IMG/VR virus record: IMGVR_UViG_3300021373_000997
Location: 1 to 39,333 of that record
Source: a virus
Length of the DNA stretch: 39,333 nucleotides
Direction: 5' to 3' (one strand)
In this document: positions 1,985-38,733 of the stretch, one piece after another
Numbering within the stretch: position 1 is the first letter of the stretch
How the letters are laid out: each line of letters starts with the position of its first letter
Notes under the pieces: generated by a model
Told to the model about the DNA's origin: nothing
Databases searched by the model: none
The model's input: the letters and a program-made list of their open reading frames with translations, nothing else
Translations under genes and position numbers: made by a program

Positions 1985-2178
1985 ATGATCGAGAATATTG
2001 GCATCGCAAAATCGAATTTATAAATCGACAGATCGATGAGCTAGTGACCACAAGAGACTCGATATATCGACTGTTAGCGTCAAATATCACGCATCAAATT
2101 CATGATGGCGATTACGAAGTTATCGAAGAGTCGCAAGAGACTTTACCCGTAAAATGGAAGGGCAGGGACTTCACGTAA
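1975..2178 (+). CDS. Small hypothetical protein with helical N-terminus
   Basis: A 67-residue protein starting at an ATG inside the last codons of the previous gene. The N-terminal half (EYWHRKIEFINRQIDELVTTRDSIYRLL) is predicted helical with heptad-like spacing, so a short coiled coil is likely. No signal peptide or membrane segment is visible. It has no counterpart after fibre allele B, so it travels with the secreted cassette that follows. Function unknown. Confidence 0.6.
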   Translation: MAIDDREYWHRKIEFINRQIDELVTTRDSIYRLLASNITHQIHDGDYEVIEESQETLPVKWKGRDFT

Positions 2179-2188
2179 GGGACGGCAG

Positions 2189-2743
2189 ATGAGCATAAAA
2201 TGGCAGGGATTGTTCTTACTGACATTGCTGCCGTTCGCAGTAAATGCACAAGAACCTATTGTTACTGAGTCCACCACTACTAGCACTGTAACCACCAAAG
2301 GCGACATGACTACAAGAGTAGAGTCGCCTCCTCCTACCGCAATAGCCCCTCAAATTATATCTAACAGCAATTCAGATCTCTGTACCGTGGGTGTCGCTGG
2401 TGCTGTTCAAACGCAGATCTTAGGCATATCCGCTGGATCTACTGTCAGAGACATGAACTGTGAGAAGCTGAAGAACGCTAAGGTGCTCTACGACATGGGC
2501 ATGAAGGTCGCTGCTGTAAGTGTGATGTGCCAAGACGAGCGGGTATTCAAAGCCATGATGAACGCAGGAACGCCATGTCCATATGACGGACTCATTGGTG
2601 ATGCTGCAAAGCTCGCCTGGGAAACTGACACTGCCAATCAACAAGAGCTTGAAGTAAAAACAGGCATGGAGAGTTTGGATGAAAGGGAGATCGCTGGGGC
2701 TTCTGGCTTCTTTGGTGTTCTGCTCGCCCTACTGCTTATCTAA
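2189..2743 (+). CDS. Sec-exported cysteine-containing protein with hydrophobic C-terminus
   Basis: A 184-residue protein. The N-terminus is a textbook signal peptide: a lysine, a hydrophobic LFLLTLLPFAV core and a VNA|Q cleavage site. A Thr/Ser/Pro-rich linker (about 22-60) follows, then a compact domain with four cysteines (in DLCT, MNCEK, VMCQD and TPCPY), which in the periplasm could form two disulfides. The last residues (FFGVLLALLLI) are strongly hydrophobic and could anchor the protein in a membrane. From memory, proteins of this pattern recur without known function in marine phages; I could not check this. It heads the exported cassette and overlaps the next gene by 65 bp. Confidence 0.8.
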   Translation: MSIKWQGLFLLTLLPFAVNAQEPIVTESTTTSTVTTKGDMTTRVESPPPTAIAPQIISNSNSDLCTVGVAGAVQTQILGISAGSTVRDMNCEKLKNAKVLYDMGMKVAAVSVMCQDERVFKAMMNAGTPCPYDGLIGDAAKLAWETDTANQQELEVKTGMESLDEREIAGASGFFGVLLALLLI

Positions 2744-3548
2744 CCCCGTTACCTATGGGGCTACAGGCAATGCGGCGCAGGACGGTCTTAACTGGGTTAT
2801 GTCGCAGGTACTTCCTAATGCTGCGGGCCTTTCTGTGAATGGTGTCATCTATCAGTACACGGCTGTCAAAGAGACAGAGGACGACATGATTGTCTATGTT
2901 CAAAACGAGAATGCTGAGGGTGATGGTTACATCTTCCGTGAAGTCGATGATTGGTCTGGTTTGCCTAGTGAGACCATTAACAAACTCGTTTCAGTCAATA
3001 ACATACCGATCAGTGCATGGGGTGACGGCTCTATCGAGGTTGAGGGCAAGGGTTTTGTGGAAGATCCCAATGTCGTTTATACCTATAAGATTGATTCTTG
3101 TTACGACGCTCAGGCTGATCCCTCATGTCCAGGCTACGTCCCTCCCATCGAGTTGCCAGAAACAGAAGTGATTGATATTTACGATGCACTTGAGGATCAA
3201 GCCGTACTAGATGCGACAGAAGAGACAGATCCTGAGCTTTATGACAGAGACAAGAAACGCCAAAGGGAGGTAAAGGAAAGCCCTGACGAGCGATTAGAGG
3301 CGGCTTTGGCGGCGACTGAGAACGCATTGACAATGGCGGCGGCTGCAACGCAGGACGCTATGCTGATGAGCATGAGTCGGTTAGAGACTTTAAATCCTTA
3401 CTATCGTGCTGATATTCGAGGCGGGGTTTATCCAGAAACTCTGCAATTGCCTGTAAGTGATATACCTGACAACAAGGCTGGTTTACGTAATGGGCTGGCA
3501 CAACAGATTCTTCATGAGAAAATGGTGAACAGCCAATATGGAAAGTAA
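2679..3548 (+). CDS. Sec-exported protein with C-terminal helical region
   Basis: A 289-residue protein with a signal peptide (MKGR, then LGLLASLVF, likely cut near CLS|NP). ATG 2679 has GGAG 7 nt upstream. The region to about 150 looks beta-rich and contains a Cys pair (SCYDAQADPSC). Residues 155-235 are acidic then Ala-rich and helical (LEAALAATENALTMAAAATQDA), likely a coiled coil. The C-terminus is short and basic. The signal peptide is encoded in the same bases as the hydrophobic C-terminus of the previous gene in another frame. Function unknown; the setting suggests an envelope or surface role during infection, or a secreted virion-associated factor. Confidence 0.8.
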   Translation: MKGRSLGLLASLVFCSPYCLSNPVTYGATGNAAQDGLNWVMSQVLPNAAGLSVNGVIYQYTAVKETEDDMIVYVQNENAEGDGYIFREVDDWSGLPSETINKLVSVNNIPISAWGDGSIEVEGKGFVEDPNVVYTYKIDSCYDAQADPSCPGYVPPIELPETEVIDIYDALEDQAVLDATEETDPELYDRDKKRQREVKESPDERLEAALAATENALTMAAAATQDAMLMSMSRLETLNPYYRADIRGGVYPETLQLPVSDIPDNKAGLRNGLAQQILHEKMVNSQYGK

Positions 3549-4442: not shown

Positions 4443-4858
4443 GATGCTTGGCTATCATGCTATTGTTTTTTTGTGCTTCTGCTATCGCACAGAACAGCTC
4501 GTTGAACCTACAGCTCCCTAGCGGCCCTACAAGTTATCAATCTGACAAGATCAGAAAGGGCGACATGGATTGTCAAAATGCTGTGGGTGGCGGTATGAAC
4601 TTAGAGTTTGGCGTCACTGGGATCATTAATAACGCCACGGGGCCATTTGATAATTATGACCCTATGTATCCTGAGCGCAAGGATGTGGGTGTATACGCTC
4701 GGATAGTGATCCCTCTGGATGGGCCAGAAGAGCGGATTAACTGCAACACCTTGTACCAACTGCTGTTAGAGAAAGAGAGATTAGAGGTGCAACGGCTAAG
4801 AGCAGAGCTACGCAATTTGCAGAGCCTACAGCAAGGTGAGGGCGGGTTTGAGAATTAA
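4439..4858 (+). CDS. Sec-exported small protein with C-terminal coiled coil
   Basis: A 139-residue protein starting at GTG 4439, which overlaps the previous stop as GTGA. The signal peptide is MRCLAIMLLFFCASAIA|Q. The mature part has a glycine-rich central stretch (NAVGGGMNLEFGVTGIINN), a DVGVYARIVIPLDGP strand and a Cys in RINCNTLY, and ends in a heptad-rich helix (LLLEKERLEVQRLRAELRNLQSLQQ). It is the fifth exported protein in a row. From memory, similar proteins occur in marine phages; function unknown. Confidence 0.75.
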   Translation: MRCLAIMLLFFCASAIAQNSSLNLQLPSGPTSYQSDKIRKGDMDCQNAVGGGMNLEFGVTGIINNATGPFDNYDPMYPERKDVGVYARIVIPLDGPEERINCNTLYQLLLEKERLEVQRLRAELRNLQSLQQGEGGFEN

Positions 4859-5370
4859 TGGAAGACCTGGAGAACATTGATGATCACGTAAAGGCTGCAG
4901 CAAAGCATGTGAAAGGCATGTCGTGGGGTGCTCGTATAGCGGCGGTCATGGGTCTGAGTAGCATAATCGGCACGTTATACGCTGGCTTTCTCATGTATCA
5001 GAAGGTGGAAGAAATCGCCAGCTTAGATTTAGGCGCTTATCAACAGCAGATGGAAGTCATGGATGCGAAGGTTACGGAGGCCGTTGATTATTCACGCGAC
5101 ATCAAGAATGGCTTGCGCGATGATATACTTAGGATCGAACAGCAGGCGGATCGGACGGAAGATTTAGTCCGCAGTAGCACTCGGGAGATACGTGATGCTA
5201 TGGATGTCATGCAGAAAGATACGCGAGAGATGATAGATGCCGCTGACGAGCGGTTTGAAACGCGCCGTGAGCAACTACGCACGTCACAGGATCAGGATAT
5301 TAAGGAACTGGAAGAGCGCTTGGAGGCGTTAGTCCAGAGAGCGTTAGACAACCCATTAGCGGATAAGTGA
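4858..5370 (+). CDS. Single-pass membrane protein with long coiled coil
   Basis: A 170-residue protein coupled by TAATG. A single membrane helix lies at about 28-48 (AAVMGLSSIIGTLYAGFLMY). The rest is highly charged and heptad-rich (residues 60-160, many Glu/Arg/Asp), a long coiled coil. The N-terminus is acidic without a cleavable signal. The topology, a short N-tail and long helical domain, resembles spanin-like or membrane-organising phage proteins, but no lipobox or second component is visible. Its position just before holin and lysozyme makes a lysis accessory role possible. Confidence 0.7.
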   Translation: MEDLENIDDHVKAAAKHVKGMSWGARIAAVMGLSSIIGTLYAGFLMYQKVEEIASLDLGAYQQQMEVMDAKVTEAVDYSRDIKNGLRDDILRIEQQADRTEDLVRSSTREIRDAMDVMQKDTREMIDAADERFETRREQLRTSQDQDIKELEERLEALVQRALDNPLADK

Positions 5371-5555
5371 TGAACACAGCAGAAGAAGCATTGAAACGAA
5401 TTGAGATCCATGAGGCTGAGTGCAAACTAATGCGCGAGATGATTGAAAAGCGCTTGGATCAAGGTGGCCTACGATTTAATAAGCTAGAGCGCATGATCAT
5501 GGCTATGTATCCATTCATTATCGCCTGCTTAGGCGCAGTGGAGTATTTCGCATGA
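5370..5555 (+). CDS. Small coiled-coil/membrane protein (homologue at 39126)
   Basis: A 61-residue protein starting at ATG 5370, overlapping the previous stop as TGATG. The N-terminal two thirds are helical and charged (EEALKRIEIHEAECKLMREMI); the C-terminal 15 residues (MYPFIIACLGAVEYF) form a short membrane segment. It aligns along its length with 39126-39323 (shared EAL..IE.HE.EC, LDQ...RF..LE, AV..FA). In allele B this gene follows the fibre partner directly, which shows where the secreted cassette is inserted or lost. Probably part of the lysis module. Confidence 0.75.
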   Translation: MNTAEEALKRIEIHEAECKLMREMIEKRLDQGGLRFNKLERMIMAMYPFIIACLGAVEYFA

Positions 5556-6028
5556 AGTTTGAAAACATCAAAGGATTGATCGGAGATCTTGCGCCTACTC
5601 TTGGCGCGGCTCTTGGTGGGCCTGTAGGTGGTGCTGCGGCTACTATGCTGGCTGATGTGTTGGGTTGTGATCCCACGCCTCAGAAGATAGAGAAAGCGTT
5701 GCAACAGGCTACCCCTGAGCAATTAGCCGAGATCAAAAAAGCTGAGCTTGACTTCGAAGTCAGAATGAAAGAGCTTGAAGTTGATGTCTTCGCGTTAGAA
5801 ACGAAGGATATACAACATGCAAGGGATTCTTTCTCAGAAGATTGGACGGCAAGGGCGATTGCCATTATGTCTATCTTGCTCTTTGGTGGCTATGTTTTGC
5901 TCGTTACTCTCCAGCCTGCTGATGACAACGACCTCAATGTCGTTAACCTGGTGCTGGGTTATCTCGGGGGCATCGTGTCTTCTGTGGTGAGTTTTTACTT
6001 TGGTGCTAGTAAGTCGGGGGGCAAATGA
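5552..6028 (+). CDS. Holin, GTA-type 3TM family
   Basis: A 158-residue protein overlapping the previous gene by ATGA. The N-terminus is Gly/Ala-rich (LAPTLGAALGGPVGGAAATML), then a charged helical middle (about 45-95), then two clear membrane helices (about 102-122, AIAIMSILLFGGYVLLVTL; and 130-152, VVNLVLGYLGGIVSSVVSFYFG) and a short SKSGGK tail. This is the architecture of the 3TM holins of gene transfer agents and many marine phages. It would open the inner membrane so that the lysozyme encoded next, which has no signal peptide, can reach the wall. Confidence 0.8.
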   Translation: MKFENIKGLIGDLAPTLGAALGGPVGGAAATMLADVLGCDPTPQKIEKALQQATPEQLAEIKKAELDFEVRMKELEVDVFALETKDIQHARDSFSEDWTARAIAIMSILLFGGYVLLVTLQPADDNDLNVVNLVLGYLGGIVSSVVSFYFGASKSGGK

Positions 6029-9368: not shown

Positions 9369-9898
9369 GTATCGCGGCAGTCAGTTGGGCACTGAACGAA
9401 GTGCGGGGGCTACGCGCCGCTGAAAAAGCCATACTCATAGCATTAGCGGATAGGGCAGATGCCGATGGCTACTGCTTTCCTAGCTACCAAGACATCACAG
9501 AGCGCAGTGGAGCGCATCGTGAGACAGTGGCGCTAGCGTTAAAGAAGTTTGAAGAGATAGGCTTGATACAGCGGAAGCGGAGGTACAGTAAGTCAAATGA
9601 ATACTACTTGTGTATCACACAGCGAGAGCCAGTCAGAGTTGAGGAAAAAGCAGCGAAGAGTAAGCAAGACGGATTCGATGAGTTCTGGTCAGCGTACCCT
9701 CGGAAGACTGCTAAGAAGCCAGCGACTCAAGCGTGGGGCGCGTTAAGCAAGAAAGATAAGAAAGCTGCAGTCGTAGGTTTGACTACATACGAGTTCAGCA
9801 AAGAAGCACGTTACATACCACATCCAGCAACATGGTTACGTCAGCGTAGGTGGGAAGACGTGTCTGAGTTAGTTACAGCGGGAGGATTGGAGATTTGA
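9365..9898 (+). CDS. Replication initiator (O-like, HTH_36 helix-turn-helix)
   Basis: A 177-residue protein coupled by an ATGA overlap. Residues 5-80 form a winged-helix: VRGLRAAEKAILIALADRADADGYCFPSYQDITERSG, then RETVALALKKFEEIGLI, the pattern of HTH_36 replication proteins. After a linker the C-terminal block FDEFWSAYPRKTAKKPATQAW, with KKDKKAAVVGL and PHPATWLRQRRWED, is the replisome-organiser tail seen in many phage initiators. It probably binds the origin (candidate iterons at 14253-14398) and loads the helicase encoded next. Confidence 0.8.
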   Translation: MSIAAVSWALNEVRGLRAAEKAILIALADRADADGYCFPSYQDITERSGAHRETVALALKKFEEIGLIQRKRRYSKSNEYYLCITQREPVRVEEKAAKSKQDGFDEFWSAYPRKTAKKPATQAWGALSKKDKKAAVVGLTTYEFSKEARYIPHPATWLRQRRWEDVSELVTAGGLEI

Positions 9899-10857
9899 AC
9901 CAGATGCCACGGCGATTCGATTTCACGGATGCCAAGCTACAAGAGATTTATCGGAAGTCGGAAGCTGCCGATGTCATTACTATTCCACAGATACGTGCTG
10001 CGCTCTTAGCCGAATTGCAGGCTGATCCTGAGACGGTGGGCTATCCGCTGCCTTGGGCTGACACTCATCACCTAGTTAGATTACGCGAGGGTGAGTTGTC
10101 GGTGTGGGCTGGTATCAATGGCCATAAGAAAAGCACGATCATTTCACAGGTGGCCGTTCACGCTGCACAGCATTGCAAGGTAGGCATTGCCAGCTTTGAA
10201 ATGCGTCTCACCGACACCGCAAAGATGATGTGTAAGCAAGCAGGTGCGACCGATGATGTCACCCTAGATTTTGCGGAAGATTTTATAGGGTGGAGTGCAG
10301 ATCGCATTTACCTCTACAGAGCGCTAGGTGGTGTCACACCCCTAGAGGCTCTCGGAGCTATCGCTGCAATGGCGGATGCGGGGTGCAAAATAGTCGTAGT
10401 TGATAACCTGCAGTTCTGCGGTGTCACTGATGACATCGAGAGAGAGCGACTGTTCATTAATCAGCTTATCGGCTTGGCTGATGCGCTACAGATACACATT
10501 GCGATTATCCACCACGTCAGGAAGCCACAATCGGGCGGCGATGAATATGTGCCGACAAGATTCGATGTGCGTGGGGGCGGGACAATAGTAGACCAGGCTC
10601 ATGTCCTGTTTATCTGTTGGCACAACAAGAAAAAGGCTGAGTACGAGAAGATGCAGGAGCTAGGTGTGCCACTGGGTGAGCGTGGCGCTGAGGTCATGAA
10701 ACAGCCGAACTTCAAGCTCATTGTAGCAAAGCAGCGACATGCACCATTTGAGGGCACTATCAAGCTGTGGGAGGGCAAAGGGCAAACATTCAAACGTGAA
10801 GAGACGCCGCAGTCACTTAGAGTCAAGATACCTCGTCTGGGAGACTACGGGGAATGA
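9895..10857 (+). CDS. DnaB/RecA-type replicative helicase
   Basis: A 320-residue RecA-fold ATPase without the DnaB N-terminal collar, similar in size to T7-gp4-like helicase domains. Walker A at residues 73-80 reads GINGHKKS, an atypical P-loop (usual GxxxxGKS, with Lys in place of the second Gly). Walker B is KIVVVDNLQF. Downstream HHVRKP and GGGTIVDQAHVL match the DnaB family H4 region and sensor. The start is TTG 9895 (GGAGG 9 nt upstream, TTGA overlap) or ATG 9904. It would unwind DNA at the phage fork with the initiator and zinc-finger primase protein upstream. Confidence 0.82.
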   Translation: MNQMPRRFDFTDAKLQEIYRKSEAADVITIPQIRAALLAELQADPETVGYPLPWADTHHLVRLREGELSVWAGINGHKKSTIISQVAVHAAQHCKVGIASFEMRLTDTAKMMCKQAGATDDVTLDFAEDFIGWSADRIYLYRALGGVTPLEALGAIAAMADAGCKIVVVDNLQFCGVTDDIERERLFINQLIGLADALQIHIAIIHHVRKPQSGGDEYVPTRFDVRGGGTIVDQAHVLFICWHNKKKAEYEKMQELGVPLGERGAEVMKQPNFKLIVAKQRHAPFEGTIKLWEGKGQTFKREETPQSLRVKIPRLGDYGE

Positions 10858-11717
10858 GGGTTCTCGATCTGTTTAGTGGTATTGGTGGCTTCAGTGTAGG
10901 TTTAGAGGCTGCAGGAATGGAGACAGTAGCGTTCTGTGAACCTAACGAATACTGTCAGAAGGTGTTACGGAAAAACTGGCCCGAGGTGCCTATCTATGAC
11001 GACGTTAGAGAACTCACAGCAGATCGACTTGTTCGGGATGGAATCAGAGCCGACATCATTACAGGCGGTTTCCCGTGCCAAGACATCAGCGTTGCAGGAA
11101 AGCAAGCTGGCATCGAAGGAGAGCGTAGCGGGCTATGGTCAGAGTGCGCCCGACTTCTTAGCGAGCTTCGACCGAGATACGCAATCTTTGAGAACGTCAC
11201 AAACTTGCTTACTGGAGACGGGGGAGCTTGGTTTGAGCAAGTTCTCTGGGATATTTCCGAGGTCGGGTATGATGCGGAGTGGCACTGTATACCAGCTAGC
11301 GCCATTGGCGCACCGCACAGACGAGACAGAGTATTCATTGTGGCCTACCCCAACAGCGATGACAGGCGGGGAGGGCATAGCGCCGAGTCACCTAGAGGGG
11401 ACGCATGGATGGAGCCTGGGAGCGGCGGCGAAAGACAGTCTCTCGCAGAAGCCATTTCGATTATGGCCAACGCCTACGGCGAACGAAGACGCTGCAGGGA
11501 CACCAGACGGGAAGATGCAAAAGATGCTGGGCAATCACCCATCATTACGCGGAAACACGCCCGAAGAATGGGCACGTGGGACTTTGAACCCGACGTGGGT
11601 AGAGTGGCTAATGGGGTTCCCAATCGGGCACACAGACTTAAAGGATTAGGCAACGCTATCGTGCCGCAGATTGCAGAGATTATTGGGGATGCTATATGGG
11701 ACAGTTCTGGATCGTAA
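10854..11717 (+). CDS. C5-cytosine DNA methyltransferase
   Basis: A 287-residue methyltransferase coupled by ATGA. It adds a methyl group from S-adenosylmethionine to C5 of cytosine in a short target, probably to evade host restriction. Motifs: I, DLFSGIGGFSVGLEAAG (about 5-21); IV, GGFPCQDIS with catalytic Cys75; VI, ENV; VIII, APHRRDRVFIVA; IX-X, RLKGLGNAIVPQ near the C-terminus. The region between VIII and IX (about 165-250) is the target-recognition domain and is short. A long second frame (10996-11649) lies inside it. Target sequence unknown. Confidence 0.93.
   Translation: MRVLDLFSGIGGFSVGLEAAGMETVAFCEPNEYCQKVLRKNWPEVPIYDDVRELTADRLVRDGIRADIITGGFPCQDISVAGKQAGIEGERSGLWSECARLLSELRPRYAIFENVTNLLTGDGGAWFEQVLWDISEVGYDAEWHCIPASAIGAPHRRDRVFIVAYPNSDDRRGGHSAESPRGDAWMEPGSGGERQSLAEAISIMANAYGERRRCRDTRREDAKDAGQSPIITRKHARRMGTWDFEPDVGRVANGVPNRAHRLKGLGNAIVPQIAEIIGDAIWDSSGS
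10996..11649 (+). CDS. Overlapping-frame protein of the LWPTPTA / LNPTWVEWLMGFP type
   Basis: A 217-residue open frame lying wholly inside the methyltransferase gene in another + frame. It contains blocks I recognise from stand-alone phage proteins found near methyltransferases: SLRTSQTCLLE, FPRSGMMRSGTVYQLAPL, LWPTPTA (twice, the second LWPTPTANE), and a C-terminal LNPTWVEWLMGFPIGHTDL. Chance translation of another frame should not yield these. Starts: ATG 10996, or ATG 11038; a GTG at 10936 also exists. No strong Shine-Dalgarno is seen, so expression is unproven. Function unknown; the setting suggests a partner of, or decoy from, the methyltransferase. Confidence 0.5.
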   Translation: MTTLENSQQIDLFGMESEPTSLQAVSRAKTSALQESKLASKESVAGYGQSAPDFLASFDRDTQSLRTSQTCLLETGELGLSKFSGIFPRSGMMRSGTVYQLAPLAHRTDETEYSLWPTPTAMTGGEGIAPSHLEGTHGWSLGAAAKDSLSQKPFRLWPTPTANEDAAGTPDGKMQKMLGNHPSLRGNTPEEWARGTLNPTWVEWLMGFPIGHTDLKD

Positions 11718-12133
11718 AGGAAAAGAGTCACATCGACGAGCGGGTAGAGCATTTCAGACGCTGGCTGCAGACAGAGTTTATCGGCGAGCATCCGATCATG
11801 TGGGAACCCCAGCGGTACAAGGCAAAACGATCATTGTCACAAAATTCGCTCTTTCACCTGTGGTGTCGTGAGATGTCTCAGCACTTCTCTGATCGTGGTG
11901 CTGACATCAATGAGGAGCGAATGAAAGAGTTGCTCTGCTACAAGTTTCTTGGCACTGAAGATAGGAAGATAGGGCAGACAGTTATCGAAGCGCAGGTTAG
12001 GCACACGTCTGATTTATCTCCAGGCGAAATGACAGACTTCATGGATCAATGTATCGCGTGGGCTTTAGATCACGGGGTGAAGCTAAGTAACCCTCCGCAG
12101 TCGGAGTACATGAGGATGACCAGTGGCACGTAA
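11696..12133 (+). CDS. NinB-like recombination protein
   Basis: A 145-residue protein overlapping the methyltransferase by 22 nt. The segment YKAKRSLSQNSLFHLWCREMSQHF matches the RS.SQN..FH core of phage NinB (lambda Orf) proteins, and the length is close to lambda NinB (146). The following EERMKELLCYKFLG and a MTDFMDQCIAWALDHGV helix fit as well. Orf assists RecBCD- or SSB-independent recombination by binding ssDNA. The NinG-like gene next to it supports the call. Confidence 0.65.
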   Translation: MGQFWIVKEKSHIDERVEHFRRWLQTEFIGEHPIMWEPQRYKAKRSLSQNSLFHLWCREMSQHFSDRGADINEERMKELLCYKFLGTEDRKIGQTVIEAQVRHTSDLSPGEMTDFMDQCIAWALDHGVKLSNPPQSEYMRMTSGT

Positions 12134-34320: not shown

Positions 34321-37133
34321 TGGCTGTCAATTTAGGCATTAACATTCAGCGAAGTCCGAACCGTATCAACCAGCAGTTGAGAGAGGCGGGTGTCATTGGT
34401 AAGTTTCCGAAGTTACTGTTGGACTTTGCTGATAACTACTACTTAGCCAATGGCGGCAGTAAGACGCTGGCTAATGCAGTCACCCACGCCCGTGCTGGCA
34501 ATGCCACTATGACTGACGGCTATGGGCCTGAGCTTGTTACCAATGGTGGCTTTACAGGGAATGCAGATAACTGGACGCTAGTGGACTCTACATATCGCGA
34601 TAATGCTGTTGATGTTGCCACAACAAGCGCAGTGTTTCCTTTAACTCAAACAAGTACAACAGCAGAGGCTGGAAAGTCATACGTTGTAACTTTTCAAGCA
34701 CGCAACAAAACAGGCCCTGGCGCAATAAAGCCCAATTTTGGTGGTGTTGACGGAACTTTTAGATCAACTGAGGGATACCACACCGAAATAATTACCGCAT
34801 CGACTACTGGAGCTTTAATTTTTAAAACGGGCGGCTCGGCTTTTACTGGAACCATAGACAACGTAAGCGTCCGAGAGATGCCTGTTATCAAATGGGCACC
34901 GCATAATCTAGTGATTGGTTCAGAAGATCCTTTAGGTAGCGCATGGAGCGAAGTAAATGCAACTGTAGACGAAAACGCTACGGATCGACACGGCATTTCT
35001 AATAGCGCTGTTACTGTCACTAGCGGCACTGGTGGTGGCTCTAGCACTTCATCATACACTCGAAACAGTCCGTTTGTTTTTAGTAGCGGAGATCCTCACA
35101 CGGTTGCTGTGTATTTAAAAGCAGATCAAAGCACTGCGGCGGCAATATCTATAACCGCTTATGATGTACCAGTAACTTGTTTCTTCGATCTAGCAAGCGG
35201 CTCAGTTGGATACACTAATGGTAATGAAGATGCTGTTAGTATTACCGATGTTGGTTCTGGCTGGTATCTTTGTAAAATTACACGGTCTTCGAATGGTTCT
35301 GATTTGTCAGGACAAGTTCGCATAGGGCCAGCGGCAAATGATGGTTCACTTCCGACAGATATCAATGTGCCACAAGATGGTAGCGCGTCTATTATATTTG
35401 ATGACTTGCACATCTACCGCTCTGACTTAGGCGGCATGGTAGACAACCCTGAGAGTGGAGACTCATACGTCCCTACAACGTCAGCGGCTAAGTACCTCCC
35501 ACGCATAGGACACCACGTCTACAACGGCTCTGCATGGGTTAACGAGGGTGTACTGGCTGAGTCTGAGTCTAGGACTAATCTGATTGAGCGCTCTAATACG
35601 TTTGATTCAGTATGGAGTGCGACAGGATTATCTTCTCGCACAGCAAATGAGGTTGGGCCTGATGGCGTAGATAACTCTGCTTACACCCTAACAGCTAGCA
35701 CAGCGGCTGGTATTCATGCTAATGGTAACACTACTTTATTTACGTCGGGATCTGCTCATACAGGCTCTTGTTATTTTAAAAAGGGCACACAGAGATATGT
35801 AAAGCTAAGGGCTGGCAACACGGTAACATGGCCAGCAAATGTCACTTTTGATTTAGATAACGGTACTGTTGATACAGAAACTAACGGCACGGGAACTATT
35901 CAAGAAATAGGAAACGGCTGGTATAGGTGTGCAGTAACGGCGACAGCGGCTTCAACAGCAAACACAAACTTTAATATCTATATTTTAAATGATTCAAAGG
36001 CTGAGTCTTTTACTGGCGCAGGAACAGAGACGACTATTGTATGGGGCGCTCAACTTGAAGTAGGTGCAACACCCTCCAGTTTTATACCTTCGGACGATGG
36101 CACAAGCACAGTAACCAGAGCGGCTGAGACATTCACTATCCCATCAGCTAACCTACCGTGGCCTACGCCGCAGTACATTGGCTCTGAGTTGGTGACTAAT
36201 GGGACGTTTGATAGTGATGTTTCTGGGTGGAGTGCAGGGCCAAACGACTCTAGTATTTCTTGGAGTAGCGGACAGATTGATGTAACTAGATTAAATTCGA
36301 CAACATCTGGTTGTTTTACGGGCTATCAATTAGTTACTGGTTTAACAGTAGGAAAAACGTACTGGTTGCAAGGCGACATCATAACGGCAAGTCACGAGGC
36401 ATCTATAGTGCCTAGCGCCACGCTAGGATCAATTGGCTATGATGAGTCTTATATACGCTACTCCAACAATCAAGTAAATAACGGATTTAGTTCATTCCCT
36501 GTAACAGCAAAAGTAGCATTTGAAGCGACAGCAACGTCTATGTATATAGGATTGGGAGCAAGATCAAACCCCGCCGCAACAGCCACTTTCGACAACATCA
36601 GCGTCCGCGAGATCAACCCCCTGTCTGTCTCTATCGGCATGGAAGGTAGGGTAACGTTTGCTGATACTGATGTGGGGACTGAAGCTACTTTCGTACGTTG
36701 GTTTGGCGGCAATCAAAACCTAATCATTAACTCATTGCAGACAGGCGGTAGCAGAACGGGGCAAATACAGTTTAGACAAGAAGCGAATGACGTTAATGAT
36801 GCCGCAAACACATCAAATACTTATTTTTCTCCTGACATACTAGTGCCGTTTAATATGGCATCTCGTCATGGATCAACATTTGTTAACGGAGCAGAAAGCG
36901 GTGTAGCTCTCACGGCCAATACTACGCCTGTTTCTTTAGCTGATCTCTCTAGCACTGACTTGGAGTTAGCCTATAAGTACATGGGAACCATCTCAGAATT
37001 CCGTGTATGGGATAAGGACATCACCGATGCTGGGCTTGTAGAGGCAACCAATCCATCGCTAGAGCCATCCCTGAGTCTTGAATTTTCAGGACTTGGTACT
37101 AATAGTTTCACCGTCAGCGATTGGAGTGAATAA
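34320..37133 (+). CDS. Large multi-module tail fibre / adhesin
   Basis: A 937-residue protein built of beta modules: a first ELVTNGGF...DNVSVREM module (about 70-190); a NLVIGSEDP...HIYRSDLGG module (about 195-380); a RTNLIERSNTFD...WGAQLEVGATPSSFI...TRAAETF module (about 415-600); a second ELVTNGTF...FDNISVREIN module (about 620-765); and a LamG-like C-terminal domain (about 768-937, ending FTVSDWSE). These are carbohydrate-binding modules typical of marine phage fibres. The first 50 residues are probably an anchor. The same modules recur in the fibres at 33 and 37135, showing module shuffling. Confidence 0.8.
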   Translation: MAVNLGINIQRSPNRINQQLREAGVIGKFPKLLLDFADNYYLANGGSKTLANAVTHARAGNATMTDGYGPELVTNGGFTGNADNWTLVDSTYRDNAVDVATTSAVFPLTQTSTTAEAGKSYVVTFQARNKTGPGAIKPNFGGVDGTFRSTEGYHTEIITASTTGALIFKTGGSAFTGTIDNVSVREMPVIKWAPHNLVIGSEDPLGSAWSEVNATVDENATDRHGISNSAVTVTSGTGGGSSTSSYTRNSPFVFSSGDPHTVAVYLKADQSTAAAISITAYDVPVTCFFDLASGSVGYTNGNEDAVSITDVGSGWYLCKITRSSNGSDLSGQVRIGPAANDGSLPTDINVPQDGSASIIFDDLHIYRSDLGGMVDNPESGDSYVPTTSAAKYLPRIGHHVYNGSAWVNEGVLAESESRTNLIERSNTFDSVWSATGLSSRTANEVGPDGVDNSAYTLTASTAAGIHANGNTTLFTSGSAHTGSCYFKKGTQRYVKLRAGNTVTWPANVTFDLDNGTVDTETNGTGTIQEIGNGWYRCAVTATAASTANTNFNIYILNDSKAESFTGAGTETTIVWGAQLEVGATPSSFIPSDDGTSTVTRAAETFTIPSANLPWPTPQYIGSELVTNGTFDSDVSGWSAGPNDSSISWSSGQIDVTRLNSTTSGCFTGYQLVTGLTVGKTYWLQGDIITASHEASIVPSATLGSIGYDESYIRYSNNQVNNGFSSFPVTAKVAFEATATSMYIGLGARSNPAATATFDNISVREINPLSVSIGMEGRVTFADTDVGTEATFVRWFGGNQNLIINSLQTGGSRTGQIQFRQEANDVNDAANTSNTYFSPDILVPFNMASRHGSTFVNGAESGVALTANTTPVSLADLSSTDLELAYKYMGTISEFRVWDKDITDAGLVEATNPSLEPSLSLEFSGLGTNSFTVSDWSE

Positions 37134-37229
37134 GATGACTAAGCAATTTTCAAACTACTCTGATCTGATTACGTTTACCCGAGCCTCTGGAGGCCATGCG
37201 TTGCGCCCTGTTAGCTATGGGGATGAGCT
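37103..37229. repeat. 127-bp exact direct repeat, right copy
   Basis: Identical to bases 1-127. It spans the end of the 937-residue fibre gene and the first codons of the next fibre. Allele B continues from here while allele A continues from the left copy. Confidence 0.95.
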
Positions 37230-38733
37230 ATCGCCTAATGCCACTTTTACAGGAAACATTGACGGTTGGACAAATGTAAGTTCCGCGGGCACAGTCACAG
37301 CAGAAAACAATGAATTAAAAATTGTTACGACAAGTACAAATGGTGCAGTTCTAAACTCATCTATTACTCTTGAAGTGGGCAAAATTTACACAGTTAGTGC
37401 GACATCGACATCTGCAACAGCGAGCCACATGCTACGAATGGGAAGCACAAGTGCTACTTCGACTAATATTTTAGCGGGGACACAATCCTCTGTTCCAAAG
37501 ACTTTTACGCATACTTTTGTTGCGACAAGCACTGTTCTTTGGATTTATCTTCGTGTTCTTGGTGCTGGTACAGTTACATGGGACAACGTATCCGTCAAAG
37601 AAGTCACCTTCGACGAATCAGACGGCACCCTAATTTTATTCGAGCATCCCGATGACGTCCCTCGCGTAGAGTGGGATAGCGCAGGTAACAGGCTGGGTTT
37701 GCTGGTGGAGGAGTCTAGGACTAATCTGGTTACTTACTCTGAGGACTTTAGTAATGCGGCTTGGAGCAAGACACGCGGTGATATTGCAAGCGTTACAATT
37801 ACTGATCCAGCGGGACAGCAAAATGCGTTTTCATGGACTTCCAATGATTTTTCAGAGTCGTATTTAGCAGACAATACAACCATATCCTCGGGCGCAACAG
37901 TAACCTTTAGCGGCTTTGTAAAAAAGAACACTGCTGATTATTGTCACTTGTTAGTCTGGGACGCGTCTGCAAATGGTTGTCGGGTATGGTTTGATTTAGA
38001 CGGCGGACAAGTAGGAACAAACACTTCGTTTGGTAGCACTTTTACTGTCAGTGACTCGTCTATTACAGAATATCCAAACGGCTGGTATAGATGTTCAATG
38101 ACGGTTACGACTTCTGGAAGCACGACAGCGCAAGCAAGATTTCAGATGTCCAATAGTGACGGCGTTATAAACTCTAGTGTTGGAAAATCTATTTACATTT
38201 TCGGCGCTCAAGTCGAACAAGCCTCATTCCCCACAAGCTACATCAAAAGTAACTCAGGCAGTACGACAACACGCTCTGCCGACGTAGCGTCTATCCCCGT
38301 GGCTGACTTTGGGTTTAATGCTGATGAGGGAACTGTAGTTTGTCAGGTTCAGCACTTTACTACTGAGTCCTCAACAGCTCATGCGCCGTTTGGTTTTGAT
38401 GATGGCACATCTAATAACAGAATGTGGTACTACCAAAATAAAGGGCAATGGATTGGCTCTGTTTCTGGATCGACTACATTTAGTGTCGATGCCACTGATC
38501 CAACCGAAGGCGTAGAAACAAAAGTCGGAGTTACTTACAAAAAAGACGATTTTACACTCTACCTTAATGGCTCCAGTATCGGCACTGATACAAGCAGTAA
38601 TGTGCCAGTAGTAGACACGATGGGAATAGGCAGAGTCGGTGCAAGCGGTACAGAGCTTAACGGCCACATTAAGTCCATCAAATACTACCCACGCCGCCTA
38701 ACTAACGCACAACTACAGGATCTAACATCATGA
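37135..38733 (+). CDS. Tail fibre / receptor-binding protein, allele B
   Basis: A 532-residue homologue of the fibre at 33-1586, same start context (GGAG 8 nt before ATG). Shared: the first 30 residues, the frame around EHP..VPRVE and NRLGLLVEE..TNLVTYSEDF, FGAQVEQASFPTSYI, SADVASIPVADFG, and the end LNGHIKSIKYYPRRLTNAQLQD. Different: the first module (about 33-150), the second module core and the LamG-like domain (about 400-505). Glycan specificity probably differs between A and B. Confidence 0.75.
   Translation: MTKQFSNYSDLITFTRASGGHALRPVSYGDELSPNATFTGNIDGWTNVSSAGTVTAENNELKIVTTSTNGAVLNSSITLEVGKIYTVSATSTSATASHMLRMGSTSATSTNILAGTQSSVPKTFTHTFVATSTVLWIYLRVLGAGTVTWDNVSVKEVTFDESDGTLILFEHPDDVPRVEWDSAGNRLGLLVEESRTNLVTYSEDFSNAAWSKTRGDIASVTITDPAGQQNAFSWTSNDFSESYLADNTTISSGATVTFSGFVKKNTADYCHLLVWDASANGCRVWFDLDGGQVGTNTSFGSTFTVSDSSITEYPNGWYRCSMTVTTSGSTTAQARFQMSNSDGVINSSVGKSIYIFGAQVEQASFPTSYIKSNSGSTTTRSADVASIPVADFGFNADEGTVVCQVQHFTTESSTAHAPFGFDDGTSNNRMWYYQNKGQWIGSVSGSTTFSVDATDPTEGVETKVGVTYKKDDFTLYLNGSSIGTDTSSNVPVVDTMGIGRVGASGTELNGHIKSIKYYPRRLTNAQLQDLTS

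Follow-up and report, generated by a model that had tools for sequence, protein, structure and literature searches.

The window, the whole 39.3-kb virus record analysed here (39,333 nt), carries at 10854-11717 two overlapping reading frames, which we call alpha and beta and which very probably encode one C5-cytosine DNA methyltransferase made of two chains. The two proteins are most likely translated separately and would then assemble into a single cytosine methyltransferase. Alpha would form the large domain, with AdoMet binding and catalysis (motifs I-VIII), a linker and motif X. Beta would be read in the +1 frame from an internal ATG that has a separate Shine-Dalgarno sequence; behind an N-terminal extension it would contribute to the small domain the recognition region and motif IX, the parts that read the DNA. 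We infer that the two proteins are produced and associate, and that they methylate a short DNA site in the phage genome, probably serving in infection to evade host restriction or to mark the phage's own DNA.

The overlapping frames and the parts they encode

Alpha (10854-11717) is flanked by a DnaB-like helicase gene (9895-10857) and a NinB-like recombination gene (11696-12133); alpha, beta and all of their features given below lie on the plus strand. Beta (10996-11649) comprises 217 codons and a stop inside the alpha ORF, and direct reading of the ORF bore out the first-pass annotation, which had reported a second frame of this length without stops. The frame remains open farther 5', up to a GTG at 10936. 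The motifs listed in that annotation were all present, namely PRSGMMRSGTVYQL, LWPTPTA (twice) and LNPTWVEWLMGFPIG in beta, and WHCIPASAIGAPHRRDRV and RLKGLGNAIVPQ in alpha in the other frame. Its statement that the same bases give the motifs of both frames stood as far as the overlap itself is concerned, but the core of alpha motif X lies mostly 3' of beta's stop, and the beta stretch LNPTW...HTD (11584-11637) lies over FEPDVGRVANGVPNRAHR of alpha. When the alpha protein and its codon use were held fixed, 3.5 stops were expected in the +1 frame over the 238 overlapping codons of the window and none was seen; a stop-free +1 frame was obtained in 0 of 200 permutations. Elsewhere in the window, an ORF near the start of the record (24-1586) and another near its end (37078-38733) both contain MNKMTKQFSNYSDLITFTRASGGHALRPVSYGDEL near their N-termini, have near-identical C-termini and look like paralogous structural genes.

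Alpha matched phrog_363 (E 5e-84) and, over residues 1-170, PF00145 (E 5.1e-52), the latter match covering only profile positions 1-166 of 324. The alpha sequence contains what we take to be motif I (FSGIGG, the AdoMet site, 10872-10889), motif IV (GGFPCQDIS, with the catalytic cysteine, 11064-11090), motif VI (ENV, 11190-11207) and motif VIII (IPASAIGAPHRRDRVF, 11289-11336), the motifs expected in the catalytic chain of a PF00145 C5 methyltransferase (I, PCQ of IV, ENV of VI, and VIII). A linker follows (11337-11642), whose frame is open and little constrained and which, judged by substitution rates, appears to be a passenger of beta. At motif X (GLGNAIVPQ, 11643-11669) the alpha frame is taken up again, and relatives are constrained in this frame downstream of where beta stops. 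The recognition region and motifs IX and X that follow motif VIII in such an enzyme were found in the pair and not in one chain, with X in alpha and the rest in beta. Of 213 alphas, 4 contained the canonical motif IX pattern, which the positive control, E. coli Dcm, also has.

Beta matched phrog_1008 (E 1.8e-28) and no Pfam family; ten more beta-type ORFs gave no methylase match. We divided beta into three parts: an N-terminal extension (10996-11337), which overlaps alpha up to motif VIII and is the candidate overprinted part; a recognition region (11338-11583) with the LWPTPTA repeats at 11338-11358 and 11461-11481, which is constrained in the beta frame in relatives; and motif IX (LNPTWVEWLMGFPIGHTD, 11584-11637), assigned by alignment to single-chain enzymes, in which the same modules stand in one frame.

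Selection on the two frames and the start of beta

Substitutions were counted by alpha codon position (1/2/3) in disjoint pairs of relatives, alpha position 1 being beta position 3. The rates were.207/.141/.519 before beta (48 pairs),.219/.127/.371 between motifs IV and VIII,.356/.154/.150 from VIII to X (52 pairs) and.148/.088/.506 3' of beta's stop (37 pairs). Relatives therefore change fastest at the third position of beta between VIII and X, and at the third position of alpha before and after beta, so that selection acts first on alpha, next on beta and, at motif X, once more on alpha. The constraint on motif X in the alpha frame indicates that alpha is read through the beta-dominated region. 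When the window was compared with 14 relatives after motif VIII, the rates in the beta frame were.384/.364/.558 with 48.8% identity, as against 41.5% identity over the same bases in the alpha frame.

The zero count of +1 stops over 157 loci follows by construction from a region defined by both ORFs, and counts in regions defined by alpha served as the family-wide test. In the loci picked by alpha, 44 stops were seen in the +1 frame against 305.8 expected, while the +2 frame had 798 against 730 expected; 57 of the 78 loci had no +1 stop from PCQ to motif X. The split genes among them had 13 +1 stops between IV and VIII, with 132.8 expected (n=48), and 17 between VIII and X, with 116.5 expected (n=46). 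Single-chain genes likewise had few between IV and VIII (3 against 23.0 expected, n=19) and showed no depletion after VIII (86 against 91.5 expected), so that only the depletion between VIII and X is without a parallel in single chains. Similarity in the +1 frame between IV and VIII exceeded that under synonymous permutation equally in split and single-chain genes, and because the two kinds of gene behave alike, this test was not used for the N-terminal extension. As +1 stops are also scarce in single chains, the assignment of the extension as coding relies on start signals and motif conservation, and the coding evidence appears weaker for it than for the C-terminal half of beta. The scarcity of +1 stops between IV and VIII in single chains could mean that some of them are re-fused split genes, the open frame being a relic of a split ancestor.

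The probable Shine-Dalgarno sequence of beta, GAGGTG (10983-10988), ends 7 nt before the ATG at 10996, and such sequences are in excess in relatives. Every ATG at a fixed distance from the PCQ codon in split loci was scored for Shine-Dalgarno matches and compared with draws of synonymous codons. At -77, matches of at least 4 were found in 40 of 65 loci (23.1 expected, maximum 32 in 300 simulations) and matches of at least 6 in 16 of the 65 (4.6 expected, simulation maximum 12). The T-ending codon that creates this ATG (TAT) was used in 65 of 97 loci, against 40.5 expected (p 8e-7). No excess was observed for internal ATGs inside beta at -20 (8 of 70 loci, 8.6 expected) and -35 (5 of 44, 5.3 expected). 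At -74 (n=27) and -47 (n=16), each represented by few loci, the excess was at or slightly above the simulation maxima; the smaller group that starts near -47 has a purine-rich Shine-Dalgarno sequence (n=16).

The C-terminal half of beta and alternative readings of the locus

Three divisions of the enzyme were seen among the split relatives. In type A, the recognition region, motif IX and motif X are all in beta; in type B, that of the window, the recognition region and IX are in beta and X is in alpha; and in type C, only the LPTP recognition part is in the +1 beta, and the alpha frame contains both IX and X, side by side. The type C loci are L239, L240, L116 and L128, in which the sequence serving as beta's motif IX in the window is motif IX of alpha. 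These four were among seven same-ORF rows in the type-B sets, the others being L118 and the indel-like L100 and L150. The latter two show what appear to be one-base insertions or deletions of draft assembly and were not counted as natural fusions.

A scan with the type-A betas of two actinophages (L003 and L005) gave 80 loci, or 82 with the queries. The alpha motifs and the recognition-plus-IX module were in one ORF in 42 of these and the module was in the +1 frame in 38, with one locus having them separate and one lacking alpha; some of the same-ORF rows are long or loosely checked, and 34 of 300-520 residues were aligned. A first hhalign comparison of beta with a small mixed set of canonical enzymes, in which six of nine locus sequences were empty, gave no match. 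Against the single-chain enzymes, the beta profile (90 sequences) gave a match of 97.2% (E 4.5e-11), in which beta columns 92-204 aligned to single-chain columns 227-360, between motifs VIII and X. As the match starts at column 92 of the beta profile, no counterpart of the N-terminal extension was aligned in single-chain enzymes by hhalign. Type-A betas matched the same single-chain region with E 1.6e-57, and they do match beta along most of its length. Beta gave a weak match to the motif IX of a plant methyltransferase of solved structure (E 1.9), and a structure model of beta alone was poor (pLDDT 56.5, pTM 0.30) and uninformative either way.

One of the single-chain genes, L317, encodes in one frame motifs I, IV, VI and VIII, an LPTP region, RLNAAFSEWLMGWPAGWVTD and an X-like LGNGVV. 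PF00145 was matched in one stretch over positions 1-314 of 324 in L317 and L316, and only to about position 165 in L327 and L369. The best VIA-align rows for the L317 structure model (pLDDT 78.8, pTM 0.82) were M.HhaI, with Z 25.8 and rmsd 3.0-3.1 over 256 residues (model range 6-350), and L317 is predicted from this model to have the M.HhaI fold end to end. Since the C-terminal half of beta is homologous to this in-frame recognition-plus-IX module, it is an old part of the enzyme, read in another frame than the catalytic motifs.

The first-pass annotation had proposed that the methyltransferase gene, read in another frame, gave rise to the second protein. This homology told against it, as a protein born in that way would have no homologue outside the overlap and the C-terminal half of beta has in-frame ones. 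That beta is such a new protein, created within an old methyltransferase gene by use of its second frame and having a function of its own, is a reading to which the near-universal overlap in the relatives fetched and the N-terminal extension over alpha IV-VIII, with no aligned counterpart in single chains, would be congenial; we consider it very unlikely, because the conserved C-terminal half is a part of ordinary C5 methyltransferases and because alpha is without that part, as the rarity of the canonical motif IX pattern in alphas attests. Overprinting could apply to the N-terminal half of beta only, over alpha motifs IV-VIII.

It is very unlikely that the two frames are joined by programmed frameshifting, with a +1 shift after motif VIII giving one long chain and not two. 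The same modules do form one chain in many relatives, and in type A one +1 shift would be enough to connect them. Against this, the distinct type-A ends listed have no one codon recurring before the stop of alpha, beta has its own start signals, and in genes of the window type motif X, constrained in the alpha frame, could be reached only by shifting a second time. Hardly credible is the idea that alpha is the sole gene and that the +1 ORF merely results from codon composition and the conservation of alpha: the behaviour of single-chain genes between IV and VIII, in both +1 similarity and scarcity of +1 stops, is what it would predict, but it is contradicted by the disjoint-pair rates, which place the constraint from VIII to X in the beta frame and not in that of alpha, as well as by the start-site signals of beta and the in-frame homologues of the module. 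Two separately translated subunits of one methyltransferase are our preferred reading of the locus.

Distribution, related enzymes and meaning

A tblastn search with beta returned 191 phage records at E <= 1e-5, 22 of them with coverage of at least 80%; with the phrog_1008 match, these give the second protein many database relatives. The first-pass view that the same bases carry a pair of conserved proteins was upheld. When IMG/VR was scanned with a profile, at least 600 stretches were obtained, at least 550 of which encode relatives (80 kept), and from GTDB genomes 242 of 339 did so (80 kept). In a set of 167 loci from the beta searches, which takes in the window and its copy L006 and was mostly chosen by beta, beta lay in the +1 frame overlapping alpha at 163; the four exceptions were L006 (set aside as a copy), L054 and L079 (in which the contig starts inside beta) and L151. 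Because most of these loci had been picked by beta, an extra sample was fetched by alpha alone (80 loci, 78 distinct). A beta match in the +1 frame was found at all 78, many contigs being common to the two sets, which are therefore not independent. Neither a beta match nor an open +1 frame was found in 14 distinct Dcm-like controls.

The stand-alone phage proteins near methyltransferases mentioned in the first-pass annotation are, given this overlap, mostly an annotation effect, and the suggestion made there that the second protein later separated from the gene applies at least once, to L126. In L126 a second complete and largely non-overlapping beta (4682-5654) lies 3' of an overlapping alpha/beta pair; in the frame beneath, GRVADGVPDRVDRPAGLGDALARKIP is still encoded, which resembles a decayed motif X of alpha and suggests a duplication and release of a putative specificity subunit. 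In L324, alpha and a type-A beta do not overlap (683-1409 and 2101-3163), and an LPTP-bearing ORF stands between them.

Beta was also found in five further named phages, Salmonella phage S9-5, Mycobacterium phages SG4 and Ochi17, Acinetobacter phage ABMM1 and Sulfitobacter phage phiGT1. It is intact in the +1 frame in all of these except Ochi17, and in the stretch examined none of the four intact cases has a separate annotation for beta; three phage records annotate one of the pair only, or a fragment. In Ochi17 (L402) both the alpha and the beta frame are interrupted, at about 2365, by what looks like an indel, and the same two-piece match pattern was seen in nine phage records (H133-H141) among the matches listed. 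A search of 369 gammaproteobacterial genomes gave a match in 21, several of them weak and with stops. Five loci from such genomes (L380, L383, L384, L385 and L396) have betas ending in LNPAHSRWLMGxP, LNPELPRWLMGLP or a close variant and low alpha scores (42-63), and form a diverged branch. An E. coli plasmid methyltransferase adjoining an SsoII-type endonuclease (L399) had no beta match.

The small polypeptide of M.EcoHK31I is encoded in another frame inside the gene of the large polypeptide. In PMC3404938, M.EcoHK31I and M.AquI are given as natural two-polypeptide C5 methyltransferases, and fragment complementation as established for enzymes of this kind. M.EcoHK31I (YGGCCR) is described there as having motifs I-VIII and X in the large subunit, in which its recognition domain is also predicted, and motif IX only in the small polypeptide, while the large subunit of M.AquI (CYCGRG) holds part of the variable region (PMC3404938). 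Compared by description, the window pair resembles M.EcoHK31I in having I-VIII and X in the large chain and IX in the small one. It may differ in the place of the recognition domain, its VIII-X region being constrained in the beta frame and the domain of M.EcoHK31I being predicted in the large chain, and it differs in belonging to a widespread phage family, whereas M.EcoHK31I is described as a single enzyme. The window shares with M.AquI the split of catalytic and recognition parts between chains, and phage pairs of type A, Stasia gp76/gp75 among them, are like it also in carrying IX and X in the small subunit; unlike in M.AquI, motif X of the window is in alpha, and IX and X were found together in the small chain only in type-A relatives. 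The single-chain phage enzymes L316, L317 and L327 have the same order of modules, with LPTP repeats and then motif IX, but all in one frame, so that a separate beta is unneeded.

In PHROGs, phrog_1008 is named DNA methyltransferase, and the entry is silent on overlap or subunits. No description of the overlap as a phage family was found in searches of the open-licence full-text literature. Two m5C enzymes of Paracoccus prophages are described as having relaxed specificity (PMC3925955), and these are grouped with proteins of about 700 residues (PMC5537653). The principle of a two-polypeptide C5 methyltransferase is already known; what we describe here is a widespread and variable form of it.

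We think it fairly probable that these loci represent a widespread phage and prophage class in which the catalytic and DNA-reading subunits stand in two frames, the point of frame change slides (types A, B and C, and one chain), and the overlap keeps the subunits co-inherited, while a free copy can still be released from a frame, as in L126. It seems rare for a long same-strand overlap to show constraint on each frame in turn and to have a product with a known enzyme activity that can be assayed; this family offers many natural replicates of such an overlap. Some cloned phage methyltransferases may fail because recoding or retagging alpha destroys beta. The arrangement would explain why many phage C5 methyltransferases look truncated, without motif IX, and it would mean that, for a common class of enzymes with which phages modify DNA, the subunit that sets specificity is hidden by present annotation.
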